NCBI RefSeq assembly: GCF_025630775.1
Contig: NZ_JAOSZE010000016.1
Span: forward strand, 124,001 to 188,000
Origin: Actinoplanes sp. KI2
GTDB taxonomy: Bacteria > Actinomycetota > Actinomycetes > Mycobacteriales > Micromonosporaceae
Reading direction: 5' to 3'
Length of the DNA stretch: 64,000 bases
Below, piece by piece: positions 26,679-59,153 of this stretch (positions within the stretch are counted from its first letter, which is position 1; every line of letters starts with the position of its first letter). The notes below the pieces were generated by a model. The model searched no databases and was not told the origin of the DNA. It saw only the letters and a program-made list of their open reading frames with translations. The position numbers and the translations under genes are program-made.

Positions 26679-26844
26679 CAACGCCGGGCTGCGGTCCGCG
26701 CACCAAGGCCACCCCAGCCCCCGAGTGGCACGGCCCGCGGTGAGCTACACGGCCCACCCGGGCTGCAGCCCGCGCACCAACGCCAGCCCAGCCCTGCGAG
26801 CGGCGCGACCGCGGCGAGCCAACCCGGCCCGCCGCGAGCCGCGC

Positions 26845-27130
26845 GCCCGGCTGATCGGCCACGCGCCCGGCTGACCGGCCACGCGACCCCACAAATCGGC
26901 CGCGCGACCCACCGATCGGCCGCACGGGCTGCCGTGAGCCGCATGCCCGGCTGATCGGCCGCGCCACCCCACAAATCGGCCGCGCGACCCACCGATCGGC
27001 CGCACCGGCTGCCGTGAGCCGCGCCCGGCCGATCGGCCGCGCGACCCCGCAAATCGGCCGCGCGACCCACCGATCGGCCGCGCGACCCACCGATCGGCCG
27101 CGCGACCCACCGACCGGTCGCACGGGCTGA
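26845..27130. repeat. Compound tandem repeat array (about 80-bp units with internal 20-bp units)
   Basis: The gene-free stretch 26679-27179 is dominated by this array. A superunit of about 80 bp containing CCCCACAAATCGGCCGCGCG recurs near 26887, 26967 and 27045. Inside and after it, a 20-bp unit of the form CGATCGGCCGCGCGACCCAC is repeated, with three consecutive copies around 27051-27110. All units are GC-rich and carry the palindrome CGATCG or GGCCG. There are no CRISPR-like unique spacers. Confidence 0.85.
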
Positions 27131-27933: not shown

Positions 27934-29082
27934 ATGGCCGAGCCCTCGCCCGCTGTCCGGGTGTCGACGCTGGAACTGTTCTTCGACCTCGTCTTCGTCT
28001 TCACGATCACCCAGCTCGCCGCGACGCTCGCCGCGGACCTGAGCTGGCGCACGCTCGGCGACGTCCTACTGATCCTGGCCGTGGTCTGGTGGATGTACTC
28101 CGGCTACGCGTGGCTCACCAACGCGGTCGCGCCGAACTCGACCACCCGGCGCACGCTGCTGCTGACCGGGATGGCCGGTTTCCTGGTGATGGCGCTGGCG
28201 ATCCCCGGGGCGTTCGGCGAATACGGCTGGCTGTTCGGCGTCAGCTACCTGGTCGTCAACGTGGTGCACACGCTGCTGTTCCGCACCGCCGGCCCGGACG
28301 CCCGGCAGGCGCTGCGGGTGCTCGGCCCGCTCAACATCCTGGCCGCGCTGCTGGTGCTGGCCGGCGGCCTGGTGCCCGAGCCGTGGCGGCATCTGCTCTG
28401 GCTGGCCGCCCCGGCCGTGCAGATCACCAGCAGCTACGTACACAAGATCGAGATGCACACGATCTCGGCGGGCCACTTCGCCGAGCGGCACGGCCTGGTG
28501 GTCATCATCGCGATCGGCGAGTCGATCATCGCGATCGGTGCCGGGTTCACCGGCCTCCACCTCGGGTTCGTCGAGATCCTGGTGGCGCTGCTGGGCCTCT
28601 GCGTCGCCTACTACCTGTGGTGGTTCTACTTCGCCGGCGACGACGCCCGCGCCGAGCACGTGCTGGCAAGCACCGACGATCCGCACCGCCGCGGCCGCCT
28701 CGCCTTGCAGGCCTGGGGCTACGCCCACTACCCGATTCTGCTGGGCATCGTGATCGCCGCGGTCGGCATCAAGAAGACGGCCCTGCACGCCTGGGAACCA
28801 CTGCACTGGTCCGAGGCCGTGGCGCTGGCCGGCGGCGTCGCCATCTACCTGCTCGGGCACGCCGCGTTCCTGGCCCAGCTGCGCCTGCGCGGCGTCTACC
28901 ACCGCCTGGCCTGCGCCGCGGTCGTCCTGGCCACGATCCCGCTCGGCCAGGTGCGTGCCGTCTTCCAGCTGGCCGCGGTCGTGGTCGTGCTGGTGAGCGC
29001 CGCGATCATCGAGGACCTCCCCGAGGTGCGCCGCAGCGGCTCCACCGCCATCGGCGACTTCGGCCGCACCGGCGGCCACTGA
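27934..29082 (+). CDS. ltrA: Low-temperature-requirement A family membrane protein
   Basis: This 382-residue protein has about ten hydrophobic segments. The LtrA signature is plain: VSTLELFFDLVFVFTITQL at the N-terminus, HFAERHGLVVIIAIGESIIAIG in the middle and YYLWWFYF. The biochemical role of LtrA is not known; it was named from cold growth in Listeria. It is divergent from a WYL regulator. The 3' end, including the stop codon, is the first unit of a 22-bp tandem array. Confidence 0.93.
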   Translation: MAEPSPAVRVSTLELFFDLVFVFTITQLAATLAADLSWRTLGDVLLILAVVWWMYSGYAWLTNAVAPNSTTRRTLLLTGMAGFLVMALAIPGAFGEYGWLFGVSYLVVNVVHTLLFRTAGPDARQALRVLGPLNILAALLVLAGGLVPEPWRHLLWLAAPAVQITSSYVHKIEMHTISAGHFAERHGLVVIIAIGESIIAIGAGFTGLHLGFVEILVALLGLCVAYYLWWFYFAGDDARAEHVLASTDDPHRRGRLALQAWGYAHYPILLGIVIAAVGIKKTALHAWEPLHWSEAVALAGGVAIYLLGHAAFLAQLRLRGVYHRLACAAVVLATIPLGQVRAVFQLAAVVVVLVSAAIIEDLPEVRRSGSTAIGDFGRTGGH

Positions 29083-29250
29083 CAGCCGCACCAGCGGCCA
29101 CCGACAGCCGCGCCGGCGGCCACTGACAGCCGGACCGACGGCCACTGACAGCCGGACCGACGGCCACTGACAGCCGGACCGGCGGCCACTGACAGCCGCG
29201 CCGGCGGCCACTGACAGCCGCGTCGGCGGGCACCGACCGGCCCCGCCGGA
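29074..29250 (+). repeat. 22-bp tandem array beginning in the last codons of ltrA
   Basis: Seven well-conserved copies of GGCCACTGACAGCCGCGCCG plus two bases run from 29074 to 29227, followed by at least one decayed copy. The first copy contains the last codons and TGA of ltrA, and most copies keep the TGA. The array lies in the 235-bp gap before the convergent MEDS/HATPase gene and may act as a barrier or terminator, but no U-tract is seen. Confidence 0.9.
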
Positions 29251-29317
29251 GGCCACCGACCCGCCGACCGGCCTTAGGTGGCCGACCGCCGGGGAGTGGG
29301 TCGCCGGTGCGGCGGCC

Positions 29318-44946: not shown

Positions 44947-45870
44947 ATGGTGCACAATTCCGACGTACGAGCGGCGGCCCGGCGCATCGCGGGCCGGGTG
45001 CGGCGGACGCCCGTCCTCGAGGCCGGCGACCGGCTCTGGTTCAAGCTCGAGCACACGCAGCACGCGGGCAGCTTCAAGACCCGCGGCATGATGAATCAGA
45101 TCGTCGCGGCCCCCACCCGGGGCGTGCTGCCCTCGGCCGGCATCGTCGCGGCCTCGGGCGGCAACGCGGGCCTGGCCGCGGCGTATGCGGCGGCCGAGTT
45201 GGGCGTACCCGCCGAGGTCTACGTGCCGTCCGCCGCCCCGGCGGTCAAGGTCGACAAACTTCGCAAACTGGGCGCCTCGGTGGTGCAGACCGGCAACGAG
45301 TACGCCGAGGCCTACGCCGCGGCGGTCGAATGGGCGCGGGCGTCCGGCGCGTACTTCTGCCACGCGTACGACGACCCCGACATGGTGGCCGGCAACGGCA
45401 CCCTCGGCCTGGAGCTGACGGAGCAGATCCCCGGCGGCTTCGACACGGTCCTGGTGGCGGTCGGCGGCGGTGGCCTGATCGCCGGGATGATCTCCGCCCT
45501 GCGTGCGTCGGACGTATCGGTCGTCTCGGTCGAGCCGGCCACCTCCTGCGCCCTGCACACGGCACTGCGGGCCGGCGAGCCGGTCGACGTGCCGGTCTCC
45601 GGGGTGGCGGCCGACTCGCTGGGCGCCCGGCGGGTCGGGGAGATCGCGTTCGGGCTGGCGAAAGATGCCGGGATCGTGTCGCTGCTCGTCGACGACAAGG
45701 CGATCGTCGACGCCCGGCGCCGCCTGTGGGACGACTACCGTCTGGTGGTCGAGCACGGGACCGCGGCGGCGTACGCGGCTTTGACGTCGGGCGTCTATGT
45801 GCCCGGCCCCGGGGAGCGGGTGGTGGTCCTCCTCTGCGGCGCCAACACGGACCCGTCGGATCTCATCTGA
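44947..45870 (+). CDS. PLP-dependent threonine/serine dehydratase-like enzyme
   Basis: This 307-residue fold-type II PLP enzyme has the Schiff-base lysine in HAGSFKTRGM, the SGGNAGLA phosphate-side loop and the GGGGLIAGM glycine loop. It lacks the C-terminal ACT regulatory domain of biosynthetic IlvA, so it is a catabolic-type threonine or serine dehydratase. It converts Thr or Ser to the 2-oxo acid and ammonia. Its stop codon lies inside a 14-bp tandem array shared with the convergent TSUP gene. Confidence 0.93.
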   Translation: MVHNSDVRAAARRIAGRVRRTPVLEAGDRLWFKLEHTQHAGSFKTRGMMNQIVAAPTRGVLPSAGIVAASGGNAGLAAAYAAAELGVPAEVYVPSAAPAVKVDKLRKLGASVVQTGNEYAEAYAAAVEWARASGAYFCHAYDDPDMVAGNGTLGLELTEQIPGGFDTVLVAVGGGGLIAGMISALRASDVSVVSVEPATSCALHTALRAGEPVDVPVSGVAADSLGARRVGEIAFGLAKDAGIVSLLVDDKAIVDARRRLWDDYRLVVEHGTAAAYAALTSGVYVPGPGERVVVLLCGANTDPSDLI

Positions 45871-45930
45871 GCGTTCTTATTTCACCGCTCTCATTTGACT
45901 GCTCTCATTTGACCGCTCTCATTTGACCGC
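45861..45930. repeat. 14-bp tandem array bridging two convergent gene ends
   Basis: Three near-perfect copies of TCTCATTTGACCGC (45889-45930) and two decayed copies (45861-45888) run without gap. The rightmost holds the last codons and stop of the TSUP gene, while the leftmost holds the stop of the dehydratase gene. Read on the minus strand, each good copy contains ATGA, so overlapping mini-ORFs (M-R-A-V-K-stop) follow one another as in the NACHT-PHP junction, although no gene follows here. Confidence 0.85.
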
Positions 45931-46683
45931 TCGGTACAGGAGGATCAAACCGATCACCGTGCCGAAGGTGACGATCACGTAGCGCAGGACGCGGGCCGGC
46001 AGGCGGCGGGCCAGCCTCGCCCCCGCGTACCCGCCGAGGACCGTGGCCGGCGCCAGGATGAGCACCGCACCCCAGTGCACGTCCGCGAAGATGGCGAACA
46101 CCACCACGGTGACCAGCCCGACCGCCGCCGACAGGACGTTCTTGAGCGCGTTGATCCGCTTCAGGGGCTCGTCGAGGATCAGCGCGAGCGCGGCCACATA
46201 CATGACACCGAGCGCCGCCCCGAAGTAGCCGCCGTAGATCGCGCCCACGAACACGACCACCTGCAGCGTGACCGCCGCCCGCCGCGGCGACATCTGCCGC
46301 GGGTGCCCGACCAGGCCACGCAGCCGCTCCTGGAACGCCAGCGTGGCCGCCGCGCCCAGGACCAGGAACGGCACGACAAGCTCGAACGCCCGAGCCGGCG
46401 TGAGCAACAGCAGCGCACACCCGCCCGCCGACCCGACGAGGCTGGTGGGGAGGATCGCCCGTACCCGCCGCCCTTGCCCTTGAAGATCGGCCCGGCTCCC
46501 GACGACGCTCGACACGTACCCGGGGAAAACGGACACCGAGTTGGTGACGTTGGCGTCGACGGTCGGCAGCCCCGTGGCGATCAGGCTGGGAAACGTGATC
46601 AGCGACCCGCCACCGGCGATCGCGTTCACGCCTCCGGCCGCGACACCCGCCACGACGAGCAGAAGTATGTGCGAGAGATCCAT
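45919..46683 (-). CDS. TSUP (TauE/SafE) family membrane permease
   Basis: This 254-residue protein has seven to eight hydrophobic helices in two repeats. The first contains GGVNAIAGGGSLITFPSLIATGLP, the hallmark of TSUP anion permeases. The second repeat contains GAIYGGYFGAALGVMYVAAL and LKNVLSAAVG. It exports or imports sulfite or organosulfonates, with substrate unknown. It is divergent from rnpB across a 61-bp gap. The 3' end lies in the 14-bp array. Confidence 0.95.
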   Translation of the reverse strand: MDLSHILLLVVAGVAAGGVNAIAGGGSLITFPSLIATGLPTVDANVTNSVSVFPGYVSSVVGSRADLQGQGRRVRAILPTSLVGSAGGCALLLLTPARAFELVVPFLVLGAAATLAFQERLRGLVGHPRQMSPRRAAVTLQVVVFVGAIYGGYFGAALGVMYVAALALILDEPLKRINALKNVLSAAVGLVTVVVFAIFADVHWGAVLILAPATVLGGYAGARLARRLPARVLRYVIVTFGTVIGLILLYRAVK

Positions 46684-54981: not shown

Positions 54982-57900
54982 ATGCGCTCCCGTCCCCTTT
55001 GCTACGCCGATGCCGCCCGGCTGCTCGGCAGCGCGGACAGCCCCGTCATGAAGCTGCTGGCAGCGGCGAGCGGCGCCGCGGCCACCGCGGTCAGCGTGGG
55101 CACTCTCGGCGGCAGCGACATCTTCGCCCTGCGCGGGGAGCTGATCGCCTGGGGCAACGCGGCGGTGACCGGCCTCCGGGAACGGCTCTCCGGCGTCCGC
55201 CGGTTCGACCGGACCGAGCGACTCGTCGCCGCGCACGCGATCATCGTGCTCACGGCGTTCTACGAGGCGCTCGACGCGGTTCTGGCCGATCACCCCGACC
55301 TCGACCTGTCGGCGGCCCGGCTGACGGCGGGCGAGCAGGTCGCCGTCGCCACCTCGGCCGCGGCGACCGACCGGTACGCGGCATGGGTGCGGATTCTGGT
55401 GGAGACGCCGCCGCCGATGCCCACGCCGCATCGTCCGTTCGAGACGACCCTTGCGGAACTCGACGACTTCTACGGGACCGCGGCGACGGCACTGACCGAC
55501 TTTCTCCTCGGGCTCAGCGCCTTCCGGGGTCGCGAAGGCCGGATCCGGGAGGTCCTGTCCTCGGCGGAGAGGGAGGTACGCCGGGCCGCGGCCGAGCGAT
55601 ACGTCCAGGCGTACCGGAGGTTGTGCGGCCAAGCGCCCGAGTTCGCCGTCTGGGCGGCCATGGTCGACACCCAGGCGACCCGGTCGTTGCTGCGGGAATC
55701 GATGGCCGACCTGTCCGCGCAGCTCGCCGGGCTACGTGCGGCGTCGCTCGTCAACCCCGTCGACACCGTCCTCGAGGGACTTCCCCGGCGGTACCGCGCC
55801 GCACTCGACACGCCCATCCTCGCCTCCGCGCACACGCCGACCCACGTGGCCCTGCCCGGCCTGGGCGACAGCTACATCGATCCGCGCGGGCGGGTGTCGG
55901 TGGCCGGCCCGCGGGATTTTCCCGCCACCGAGGAGTGGTGGAACCGATCCGACGCGGTCGACGACGTCCAGGGCTTCCTGCTGGCCCACCTCACCGGGCC
56001 GGACTCGGTGGCGGGCCCGCTCGTGGTGCTCGGCCAGCCCGGTTCGGGGAAGTCCGCGATGACCAAGGTCCTGGCCGCGCGCCTGCCGACCGCCGACTTC
56101 CTGGTCGTACGGGTCGCGTTGCGCAACGTTCCGGCCGACTCGCCGATCCAGACGCAGATCGAGGAGGCGCTCCTGCAGATGCTCGGCGAGCGCGTCTCGT
56201 GGCCGGACCTGGTTCGCCGGGCCGGCCACGCGATGCCCGTCGTCATCCTGGACGGGTTCGACGAGTTGCTGCAGGCCACCGGAATGAACCGGGCCGACTA
56301 CCTCGAGCTCATCCGGGACTTCCAGCAACGCGAGGAGGAACTCGGCCGGCCGGTCGCCGTCCTGGTCACGAGCCGTACGGTGGTCGCGGACCGGGTACGT
56401 TTCCCGGACGGCACGGTCGTCCTGCGGCTCGAGCCGTTCGACGAGTCGCAGGTCCGTGCGTGGCTCGACGTGTGGAACGCCCACAATGCCGCCGGTCTGC
56501 ACCTGCGCGGGCTACGACCGCTCTCCGCCGCGACCGCTCTGGCGCACGGCGAGCTGGCGCGCCAGCCGTTGCTCCTGCTTCTGCTCGCGCTCTACGACGC
56601 CGGCGCCAACGCCTTGCAGTCCGCCACCGGGAACATGCTGCGAGTCGACCTGTACGAGCGGTTGTTCGCCGACTTCGTCGAGCGCGAGGTCGACAAGCAG
56701 AATCGAGGCCGCGCGGACGACAATCGCCAGGCCGAGATCGACGCGGAATGGCGTCGCCTCGGCGCGATCGCCGTGGCCGCCCTCAATCGCGGAAGCGACG
56801 TGATCCTCGAGGCCGAGCTGAACAACGACCTCCCGCACCTGCTCTGGGAGGGTGACCTGCGTCCCGCGCCCAGCTCGGCCGACCGCGCACTCTCGGTGAG
56901 TCAGATGATGGTGGGCCGGTTCTTCTTCGTGCACGAATCCCGGGCCACCCGCGACACCGGCCGCCCGGAACGCAGCTTCGAGTTCCTGCACGCCACGTTC
57001 GGCGATTTCCTGGCCGCCCGCCAGATCGTCGCTGCCCTCGTCGATGTGGCCGGCGAGCGCATCCACCAGCGACGCCGGCAAGGCGTCTTCGATCCCGGCC
57101 CGCTGTACGCGATCACGTCGTTCGTCACCGTCGCCCGGCGTGCGCCGCTGTGGGACTTCTGCCGGGGGCTGCTCGGCAAGCTCGACCCGGAACGGCGACG
57201 CAGCTGCCGGGAGCTTGCCCTCGACCTGCTGCCCGAGGCCGGGTACCCGCACCCGACCTGGAGCCGGGGCGACTACGAGCCGCGGCGCATTCCGCAGGCC
57301 GGGCGGCACGCCGCGTTCTCGGCGAATCTCGTCTGCTTTGCCGTGCTGCTCAGCGACGGGCCGGTGGACGCGGCCGAACTGGTCGGCGAGCCGGTCGTCG
57401 ACAACTGGCGACGGCAGGCGTTGCTCTGGCAGAGCCAGCTCGACGCCGAGGACGGCAAGCGCATGTGGCAGACGCTGCGGGTGGAATGGCAGCTGGCGGC
57501 GGATCCAACCCGCTTGCAGGTACGCCCGGAGGACGGTACGCCGATCAGCGTCTACGAATCGTTGCCGTGGCCACCCGATGACCGTCCCGCGACGTACCGA
57601 CGCGATGAGCAGGCGCCGATGATGGCGCCGGACGTGTCGGTCGCCGCCGACAGCCGGGTCGGACGGTCATTGCGCCGGTCGGCGTTCGTGCAGACCGCGC
57701 ACGACGTCCGGGAATGCCTCTACGACCTCATGCCGTACTGGCAGAACGCCGGTGAGCCGAGTCTGCATCTGATCGCCGGGGAACCGTATCTGGTCTCCGA
57801 GGCCGCGCTGTTCCTTCAGCTACTGCTGTCCACCGCGAACGATCAGCCGGGCGGGGTACGCGCCCGGCAGTACGGCGGAGCACTGGCGCTGATCCGGCAA

Positions 57901-58176
57901 CGGCGACAGCGCAATCTGCTCATCCGGCAACTCGTCGACGACGCTCCCCGGCTCACGGCCGCCGAGCTGGAATACATTTTTCACAACGTCGCGTCGAGCG
58001 ACGGCAGCAACAATCCGGACGAGTTTCTCGCGATCCTGTCCGCCACCACCGACCGCAACCTGGCCCTTGGCCTGCTCAACGCGATCAGCTGGGATTTCTC
58101 GGATGATTTGGATGACCCCGTGCGCGAGGGACTGTACCGGGAGCTGCGCCTCGCCGATCCGTTCACGAAGCAATGA
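54982..58176 (+). CDS. NACHT-domain STAND NTPase (bNACHT-type, possible anti-phage)
   Basis: This 1064-residue protein begins RSRPLCYADAARLLG, matching the NNH-type N-terminal helical domain of bacterial NACHT proteins. A helical linker follows to about residue 330. The NACHT core has P-loop VVLGQPGSGKSAM (about 350-360), Walker B VVILDGFDELLQ and the sensor-like LVTSRTVV. After that come FEFLHATFGDFLAARQIV and a large helical C-terminal sensor. Bacterial NACHT proteins of this kind defend against phage. The effector is either the N-terminal domain or the coupled downstream PHP protein. Confidence 0.88.
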   Translation: MRSRPLCYADAARLLGSADSPVMKLLAAASGAAATAVSVGTLGGSDIFALRGELIAWGNAAVTGLRERLSGVRRFDRTERLVAAHAIIVLTAFYEALDAVLADHPDLDLSAARLTAGEQVAVATSAAATDRYAAWVRILVETPPPMPTPHRPFETTLAELDDFYGTAATALTDFLLGLSAFRGREGRIREVLSSAEREVRRAAAERYVQAYRRLCGQAPEFAVWAAMVDTQATRSLLRESMADLSAQLAGLRAASLVNPVDTVLEGLPRRYRAALDTPILASAHTPTHVALPGLGDSYIDPRGRVSVAGPRDFPATEEWWNRSDAVDDVQGFLLAHLTGPDSVAGPLVVLGQPGSGKSAMTKVLAARLPTADFLVVRVALRNVPADSPIQTQIEEALLQMLGERVSWPDLVRRAGHAMPVVILDGFDELLQATGMNRADYLELIRDFQQREEELGRPVAVLVTSRTVVADRVRFPDGTVVLRLEPFDESQVRAWLDVWNAHNAAGLHLRGLRPLSAATALAHGELARQPLLLLLLALYDAGANALQSATGNMLRVDLYERLFADFVEREVDKQNRGRADDNRQAEIDAEWRRLGAIAVAALNRGSDVILEAELNNDLPHLLWEGDLRPAPSSADRALSVSQMMVGRFFFVHESRATRDTGRPERSFEFLHATFGDFLAARQIVAALVDVAGERIHQRRRQGVFDPGPLYAITSFVTVARRAPLWDFCRGLLGKLDPERRRSCRELALDLLPEAGYPHPTWSRGDYEPRRIPQAGRHAAFSANLVCFAVLLSDGPVDAAELVGEPVVDNWRRQALLWQSQLDAEDGKRMWQTLRVEWQLAADPTRLQVRPEDGTPISVYESLPWPPDDRPATYRRDEQAPMMAPDVSVAADSRVGRSLRRSAFVQTAHDVRECLYDLMPYWQNAGEPSLHLIAGEPYLVSEAALFLQLLLSTANDQPGGVRARQYGGALALIRQRRQRNLLIRQLVDDAPRLTAAELEYIFHNVASSDGSNNPDEFLAILSATTDRNLALGLLNAISWDFSDDLDDPVREGLYRELRLADPFTKQ

Positions 58177-58228
58177 CGTCCACGAAGCAATGACGTCCAC
58201 GAAGCAATGACGTTCACGAAGCAATGAC
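58161..58228 (+). repeat. Four copies of a 17-bp repeat forming an ATGA mini-ORF relay
   Basis: Four perfect or near-perfect 17-bp units GTTCACGAAGCAATGAC or GTCCACGAAGCAATGAC run from 58161 to 58228. The first unit encodes the last residues and stop of the NACHT protein. Each ATGA joins a stop to a new ATG. Three mini-ORFs of six codons (M-T-S-T-K-Q or M-T-F-T-K-Q) result, and the last ATGA is the start of the PHP gene. The 17-bp period shifts the frame by -1, which is exactly what keeps every overlap in register. Confidence 0.9.
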
Positions 58229-59153
58229 CTGGTATCGGGGCGACTGCCACGTCCATACGCAACGCTCGCACGCGGCCGAGCTCACGCCGCCGCAAGTCGC
58301 CTCGGCCGCCCGCGAGGCCGGGCTGGACTTCATCGCGATCACCGAACACAACGCGGCCGACACGTACGACGCGTGGGGTTCCGATGTGCTGGTCATCCCC
58401 GGGCAGGAGGTCGTCACGAGCACCGGGCACTGGGTGGCGGTCGGCCTCGCGCCGGGACAGGTCGTCGACTGGCGGTACGGGGTCCGCGACGGGCTGATCG
58501 AGCGGGCCGTCGAGTCGGTGCGCCGGGTGGGCGGGCTGTGCATCGCGGCCCACCCGCATGCGCCGTACCCCTCGGGGGTTTTGATGTATCCGTTCCGGCA
58601 CTTCGATGTCGTCGAGGTGTGGAACGGTGCGTGGCGCTCGGACGTGCCGTGGCAGGCGGACAACGAGGCGGCGCTGGCGGAGTGGGGGCGCGGCCTGGCC
58701 GCTGATCTCCGCGCCGGAGCGTGGCGACCGGCGATCGGCAACAGCGACGTGCACCTGGAGGGGCAGATCGGGACCCCGCAGACGGTAGTACGGGCCGCGG
58801 GCCTGGAGGTGTCAGCGCTGCTCGCCGGCCTGCGGGCCGGGCACAGTTGGATCGCCGCGTCGGCGTCGGTCGACCTGTCGTTCACCGTCCGAGCCGGCGA
58901 CCAAGTTGCGGGTATCGGCGAGCGGCTGCGGGCCGCGGCGGCCGGGGCGCGGGTGGACGTCAGCGGGGTGCCGGACGGGGTGGTGGGGTTCCACACCGAA
59001 CGGGGACGGGCGCACGTCGCGCGACTGCCGGGCGACGGCGCGGGCACGGTCGAGTGGTCCACCACCGCGGCGGAGTCCGGATTCATTCGGATCGAGGTAC
59101 GTCACCCGAGCGGAGGCATGGCCGCCCTCACCAACCCGATCATCCTGACCTGA
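58224..59153 (+). CDS. PHP-domain metallohydrolase
   Basis: This 309-residue protein has the PHP metal motifs: WYRGDCHVHTQRSHAA (H-x-H), DFIAITEHNAADTYD, VIPGQEVVT, CIAAHPHAPYP and AIGNSDVHLEGQ. These are the standard four-site His/Asp ligands of a tri-metal phosphoesterase. The C-terminal 80 residues form a beta-sandwich. Substrates could be nucleotides or nucleic acids. It starts directly after the NACHT mini-ORF relay, so its synthesis is coupled to the NTPase. It may be the effector of that system. Confidence 0.93.
   Translation: MTWYRGDCHVHTQRSHAAELTPPQVASAAREAGLDFIAITEHNAADTYDAWGSDVLVIPGQEVVTSTGHWVAVGLAPGQVVDWRYGVRDGLIERAVESVRRVGGLCIAAHPHAPYPSGVLMYPFRHFDVVEVWNGAWRSDVPWQADNEAALAEWGRGLAADLRAGAWRPAIGNSDVHLEGQIGTPQTVVRAAGLEVSALLAGLRAGHSWIAASASVDLSFTVRAGDQVAGIGERLRAAAAGARVDVSGVPDGVVGFHTERGRAHVARLPGDGAGTVEWSTTAAESGFIRIEVRHPSGGMAALTNPIILT

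Follow-up and report, generated by a model that had tools for sequence, protein, structure and literature searches.

Among described systems, those closest to the junction reported here are the mycobacterial MIRUs. According to PMC12548453, which cites Supply 1997 on this point, these repeats appear to insert at start codons, with an internal ORF coupled to the gene at −4, and gene expression is described there as little disturbed by the insertion (PMC12548453). At senX3-regX3, one strain is reported to carry three 77-bp units and another two 77-bp units and one 53-bp unit, and the repeats are reported to drive transcription as well (PMC4213456).

More generally, a −4 overlap is given as the commonest spacing of unidirectional gene pairs (PMC10666635). 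The same source describes re-initiation in native E. coli and Haloferax pairs as nearly gone at an untranslated spacer of about 20 nt, which provides a reason for spacers to stay translated; it also describes published reporter studies as disagreeing over the passage of ribosomes across untranslated spacers (PMC10666635). In Haloferax, removal of the Shine-Dalgarno sequence is reported to have reduced re-initiation without abolishing it (PMC6728339).

The NACHT–PHP junction

In the window, i.e., the whole 64,000-nt stretch of Actinoplanes sp. KI2 DNA that was analysed, a NACHT NTPase gene and a PHP-domain gene are joined by a short tandem array, with the following features:

54982..58176, plus strand: NACHT NTPase gene (Pfam PF22738, E 8.2e-49, and PF05729, E 4e-6; gene call from codon-position GC)
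58160..58227, plus strand: four 17-bp tandem repeats, CGTYCACGAAGCAATGA, covering the NACHT stop and the PHP start
58160-58176, 58177-58193, 58194-58210 and 58211-58227, plus strand: the individual 17-bp units
58173..58193, plus strand: mini-ORF 1, MTSTKQ, whose ATG overlaps the NACHT stop (ATGA)
58190..58210, plus strand: mini-ORF 2, MTSTKQ, with ATGA links at both ends
58207..58227, plus strand: mini-ORF 3, MTFTKQ, whose stop overlaps the PHP start
58224..59153, plus strand: PHP-domain gene, CehA/McbA-family metallohydrolase, 309-aa open frame (NCBIfam NF038032, 169.6 bits against a cut-off of 80; Pfam PF02811)

The NACHT gene product comprises an NNH7 N-terminal domain and a NACHT domain (Pfam); the start codon of its gene is uncertain. 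Tandem Repeats Finder delimits the array as 58160-58228, with period 17, 4.1 copies, 96% matches and a score of 124, and the units vary at a single site, copies 1 and 4 beginning with CGTTC and copies 2 and 3 with CGTCC. The initial annotation let four repeats run from the NACHT stop to the PHP start. The array itself stands; its first unit, however, still belongs to the NACHT gene, forming its 3' end together with the stop codon (TGA, 58174-58176), and the true spacer consists of three units. The proposed reading of the linkage is borne out by the sequence: every unit ends in ATGA, each stop overlaps a new ATG, and four ATGA links enclose three six-codon ORFs, the fourth ATG of the chain, at 58224, being the start of the PHP ORF (stop at 59151-59153).

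The PHP frame contains no ATG, GTG or TTG between an in-frame stop at 58191 and the ATG at 58224. No promoter-like or terminator-like match is present in 57700-58400, and reading the sequence by eye revealed no Shine-Dalgarno-like run at a suitable distance 5' of the PHP ATG. A search of the source genome (10.06 Mb, an assembly of 201 contigs with a contamination score of 7.05%) allowing up to two mismatches returned four matches to the 17-bp unit, all of them in the array and none elsewhere.

In sequence arrangement, the junction resembles the published description of MIRUs in that a repeat sits between two genes with a small ORF coupled at −4 to the next one, and in a unit length that is 2 mod 3 (17 bp here; 77 and 53 bp in PMC4213456). 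It differs in the size of the unit, 17 bp compared with 53 and 77 bp (PMC4213456), in being confined to one junction of its genome, whereas MIRUs are described as interspersed elements that appear to be mobile, and in that the unit is copied from the end of the NACHT gene itself. Set against these descriptions, the array works like a MIRU but is not a MIRU. The initial view that a repeat-built relay is without precedent does not hold, since mycobacterial MIRU ORFs are described as −4-coupled at junctions (PMC12548453); no title on repeat-built coupling was found among the literature matches listed.

Each link is a standard −4 overlap of the kind known from termination-reinitiation at −4 (ATGA) and −1 (TGATG) overlaps, but the junction has four such links in series, via six-codon ORFs, instead of one. 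A stop and a start that overlap or lie a few nucleotides apart, the arrangement used to recognize translational coupling, are found at all four. When the ATG at the NACHT stop was held fixed and the 47-nt spacer was shuffled 20,000 times, a chain of RTGA links only was obtained in 33 shuffles, any stop–start chain under a looser rule in 1,966, and an in-frame fusion in 11,128. The reading that we favour, and regard as probable, is that the NACHT–PHP junction began as a −4 overlap, that tandem duplication lengthened it, and that this was tolerated because the coupling survives.

RTGA minisatellites in Actinoplanes

The array might instead be a neutral by-product, one of many stop-borne minisatellites, that ends at the PHP start by chance; PHP would then be little expressed, or expressed by other means, and the chain would be without a role. 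We consider this doubtful, however, the wide occurrence of RTGA arrays in the genus speaks for it. Exact arrays of four RTGA units were found in 36 of 67 genus genomes at a period of 16 bp, in 39 of 61 at 17 bp, in 20 of 67 at 19 bp and in 27 of 67 at 20 bp, as well as in 60 of 67 at 18 bp, a period at which coding sequence was allowed. The reversed pattern, used as a control, occurred in 29/67 (16 bp), 30/61 (17 bp), 10/67 (19 bp) and 16/67 (20 bp). The array tallies were counted by hand, that for 17 bp covering the genus genomes within the family search, and the excess of relay lengths in these tallies (17 over 16 bp, 20 over 19 bp) is not significant.

The surroundings of 188 arrays (16, 17, 19 and 20 bp), among the arrays listed, were surveyed with a simple gene caller; the source NACHT–PHP array, arrays at contig ends, 8- and 10-bp periods and non-repeats were left out. 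No array lay inside a called gene (0/188, among the arrays listed), and an upstream gene's stop fell within the array in 30 of the 188 listed. Ten arrays were removed because their units were less than 70% identical or their period was shorter, and 22 because one flank lacked a called gene; the other 156 could be classed. Among these listed arrays 85 sit between convergent genes, and the relay lengths (17 and 20 bp) are not enriched in co-directional positions (22/82 versus 20/74 for 16 and 19 bp). The near-equal frequency of the reversed control at 17 bp (30 versus 39 of 61) and the missing co-directional enrichment count against the favoured reading and in favour of a by-product. Of the listed co-directional arrays, 27 have a gap no longer than 400 nt; under a loose rule 10 of these are chain-connected, 8 of 15 with a relay length and 2 of 12 with other lengths (Fisher P 0.11). 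In three loci (L085, L091, L183) a purine-rich run precedes the next ATG, and a relay may be unnecessary there. Two connected arrays reach the start of the next gene in their last unit, i.e., those between hpt and HAD (L157/L376) and between ureC and ureF (L259/L311).

A second ATGA array in the window also fits the by-product reading:

45861..45932, minus strand: array of ATGA-bearing 14-bp units at a minus-strand gene's stop, about 12 kb from the NACHT–PHP junction and separate from it, a natural control

It repeats the end of that gene and yields three MRAVK mini-ORFs followed by a dead end. The gene beyond it, encoding a serine/threonine dehydratase, is convergent, and no gene is fed; a relay can thus arise with nothing downstream. 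The RTGA repeat as such looks like a by-product, an ordinary minisatellite of the genus. As regards the NACHT–PHP chain, the by-product reading is opposed by the exactness of the chain, by an open PHP frame with apparent metal-site motifs in its sequence, and by the chains kept at the two junctions described below.

Further minisatellites lie at 26838-27121 and 29063-29272 of the window (20-bp and 22-bp units). Elsewhere in the genus, three 17-bp GTGA units with mini-ORFs lie directly 5' of a gene resembling an ArsR regulator (L168, G042:C72, about 1121-1190 of the reversed locus), with an AT-rich palindromic stretch before the array; from its sequence, this would be a leader relay without a tie to the upstream gene. 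At L217 (G041:C12), diverged 20-bp GTGA units (65% alike) finish on the start codon of a response-regulator-like gene, and the upstream gene, whose stop lies about 90 nt before the first unit, is unlinked.

The hpt–HAD and ureC–ureF junctions

At both junctions reached by connected arrays, tandem units bridge a stop to the next start via mini-ORFs, as in the NACHT–PHP array. They differ from it in that the unexpanded state is visible in other genomes. An hpt match was found upstream of HAD in 3 of 30 HAD loci (L376, L377, L378). In L377 (ATGA) and L378 (GTGA), hpt and HAD overlap by exactly 4 nt. In L157/L376, the hypoxanthine phosphoribosyltransferase gene and the HAD hydrolase gene flank a 117-nt junction of six 17-bp units and one 16-bp unit, in which five mini-ORFs lead unbroken to the HAD start. 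In these sequences, hpt–HAD offers the before-and-after picture that the NACHT–PHP junction cannot.

The ureC–ureF junction was obtained from 65 of 67 genus genomes, and 63 junctions were usable, L373 and L374 being omitted for a misplaced start. The gap is at most 3 nt in 38 of the 63 (a 1-nt overlap, TGATG, in 27 of them), 4–15 nt in 6 and 27–1131 nt in 19. A spacer was regarded as chain-connected if each start (ATG, GTG or TTG) lay no more than 4 nt upstream and no more than 8 nt downstream of the first base of the stop that it follows. Under this rule 17 of the 19 long spacers are connected. In 15 of these 17 the bridge is a single ORF, which begins at the ureC stop and whose own stop overlaps the ureF start; the chain is broken in L324 and L334. 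One of the six gaps of 4–15 nt is connected.

The number of connected long spacers is far above the 1.58 of 19 expected for shuffled spacers and the 2.62 expected when 1-nt indels are introduced at random. With the length and the first 8 nt preserved, 11.2 are expected (17 observed, P 1.1e-5); none of the 19 is connected when reverse-complemented. The first ATG lies in the sole phase ending on the ureF start in 15 of 18 spacers (P 1.9e-5), and in 12 of 15 (P 2.9e-4) when similar spacers are merged unfavourably, in tests that treat the genomes as independent, which is true only in part. The spacers are mostly dissimilar by blastn, with matches only among L315/L333/L334 and between L353 and L354 (18 nt).

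The repeat relay at this junction (L259/L311) consists of three 16-bp units, ATG AGC CNG ATC TGA C, and unlike the NACHT–PHP array it has 16-bp units and TGACATG links. The longest spacer, 1131 nt in L323 (G007), appears to be that of Actinoplanes italicus (L425, likewise 1131 nt). In both, the spacer contains internal repeats and is spanned by one open frame of 377 codons, which opens at a TGACATG on the ureC stop and closes at a GTGA on the ureF start. The spacers of L315, L333 and L334 have in common a stretch of 80–97 nt resembling an imperfect palindrome, perhaps a small mobile element that would have entered at the ureC stop; two of the three retain an intact relay, and a TAG breaks it in L334.

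Among named records from outside the genus, six are without a candidate ureF start within 15 nt. Three of these (L433, L467, L469) are connected and one (L445) is not; for the remaining two, L459 and L484, no position could be assigned to the ureF start. The end of ureC was not found in three records. As a further junction ureF–ureG was considered and set aside, since mostly no candidate start follows the ureF stop and the chain test is inapplicable.

Repeat relays absorb most single-nucleotide indels because every unit restarts the frame: the chain stays intact for 151 of 239 such changes in the NACHT–PHP array, 477 of 589 in L376 and 212 of 249 in L259. Of 14 non-repeat bridges shorter than 300 nt, 13 absorb 1–11% of single-nucleotide indels and one, L353, absorbs 73%. 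In random indel trials, 40% and 55% were absorbed by the two longest ureC–ureF bridges (L323 and L330, respectively), which indicates that length and internal repeats also help.

The initial annotation proposed that the chain keeps its two genes coupled, and the unbroken stop–start chains kept at hpt–HAD and ureC–ureF agree with a role of this kind. They suggest that unbroken chains are selected as coupling links at these genus junctions, and they argue against the NACHT–PHP array being a mere by-product. The ureC–ureF bridges could, however, be kept to avoid untranslated RNA (Rho polarity) rather than for re-initiation; this would favour translated spacers, yet would not by itself require the exact phase.

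Copy number and conservation of the gene pair

The initial annotation assigned to the array the role of a dial: unit gain or loss by slipped-strand mutation would alter the number of re-initiation steps and thereby set PHP relative to NACHT. Its premise, that gain or loss never breaks the chain, is correct in silico, where the chain is intact with any number of units from 1 to 7 after the first. Since the unit includes ATGA and its length is 2 mod 3, each added copy creates another stop–start link. Made-up 16-bp units break the chain, 15- and 18-bp units fuse an extension onto PHP, and 19- and 20-bp units give a looser chain (in silico). The copies differ at one site only and are thus probably recent, and the make-up of MIRUs at senX3-regX3 is reported to differ between two strains (PMC4213456), both of which would suit a dial.

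Comparison with other genomes (one per species) speaks against it. With a loose cut-off, 33 of 60 genus genomes gave a PHP match, and at E 1e-40, 62 of 300 family genomes did so; NACHT relatives are present in 60 of 67 genus genomes. No NACHT match lies beside PHP in the other 41 PHP loci (about 1.5 kb of flank), the source locus being the only one of 42, and no PHP match lies beside NACHT in the other 29 NACHT loci, the source locus again being the only one of 30. Nor was the pair found in ten 20-kb neighbourhoods, four of NACHT and six of PHP relatives. As far as these loci and neighbourhoods go, the repeat is absent in relatives and the pair is not conserved, the outcome that the initial annotation itself regarded as contrary to its proposal. 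Relay-length arrays are not favoured at co-directional junctions among the arrays listed, and a re-initiation step may cost little. Taken together, a copy-number dial at this junction appears unlikely.

The neighbourhoods of the ten relatives show no gene order in common with the window (query ORFs after 40000); they share with it the one NACHT or PHP gene and otherwise give only weak matches of 38–42% over 106–128 residues (L067, L068, L070). The closest NACHT relatives, L032 and L033 (72% and 68% identity), end by running into unrelated sequence. The alignment of the closest NACHT relative extends to residue 1034 of 1043, and those of the PHP relatives mostly begin at residue 1–4, which identifies the array as the seam of two joined genes. 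The best PHP relatives, L286 and L002, have extra N-terminal sequence 5' of the source PHP start, and L003, L005, L006, L007 and L011 seem to begin at the same point as the source PHP. Scanning genome contigs with NACHT yielded 19 candidate stretches, none of which was confirmed as a relative. In the genus the NACHT family occurs in several copies, with up to 8 matches in one genome (G009). In L045 (G016), a 25-bp tandem repeat lies over the stop of another NACHT gene; it is 1 mod 3 and forms no ATGA relay.

PHP could also be translated independently, by way of an internal promoter or a leaderless transcript; this may apply to relatives with a TANNNT box just 5' of the ATG (L003, L005, L011; a promoter reading from sequence). 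Such independence is very improbable here, where the array has no TANNNT box, no sigma-70-like match lies upstream, and the sequence 5' of PHP is the 3' end of NACHT.

Discussion

The account that we favour for the NACHT–PHP junction, a stretched −4 overlap, would proceed as follows. The two genes would first have come to overlap by 4 nt (ATGA), and tandem duplication of the 17 nt at the end of the NACHT frame, with its stop, would then have lengthened the junction. Ribosomes finishing NACHT would still reach PHP by terminating and re-initiating, now four times in succession, although the PHP start lacks its own Shine-Dalgarno site. The repeat itself would have arisen as an ordinary minisatellite of the genus, and the chain would have been retained since it preserves coupling. 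On the simplest account, coupling must be kept where the downstream gene is without its own ribosome site. Re-initiation at this junction, a cost in yield at each step and an ancestral plain −4 overlap are what we infer from the sequence. Against this account, the pair is seen at the source locus only among the loci examined, and coupling may not matter for this particular pair. The single connected case among the six ureC–ureF gaps of 4–15 nt, the broken chains of L324 and L334 and the contamination score of the source genome also count against it.

It is at these other junctions of the genus, and not at NACHT–PHP, that the most interesting consequence of the initial annotation lies. A spacer made of an ORF, or of a series of ORFs, would leave no untranslated gap. 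As a tentative generalization, which we hold to be possible though not the likelier outcome, coupling-dependent junctions in Actinoplanes would grow only with a translated stop-to-start bridge, repeat relays would be the error-tolerant form of such bridges, and copy number would set the level of the downstream protein. If true, spacers at coupled junctions would be selected to remain translated, and in the phase whose stop falls at the following start; the ureC–ureF series, whose members within a single genus range between a 1-nt overlap and a 1131-nt spacer, would provide a natural test of the reach of termination-reinitiation through serial ORFs.
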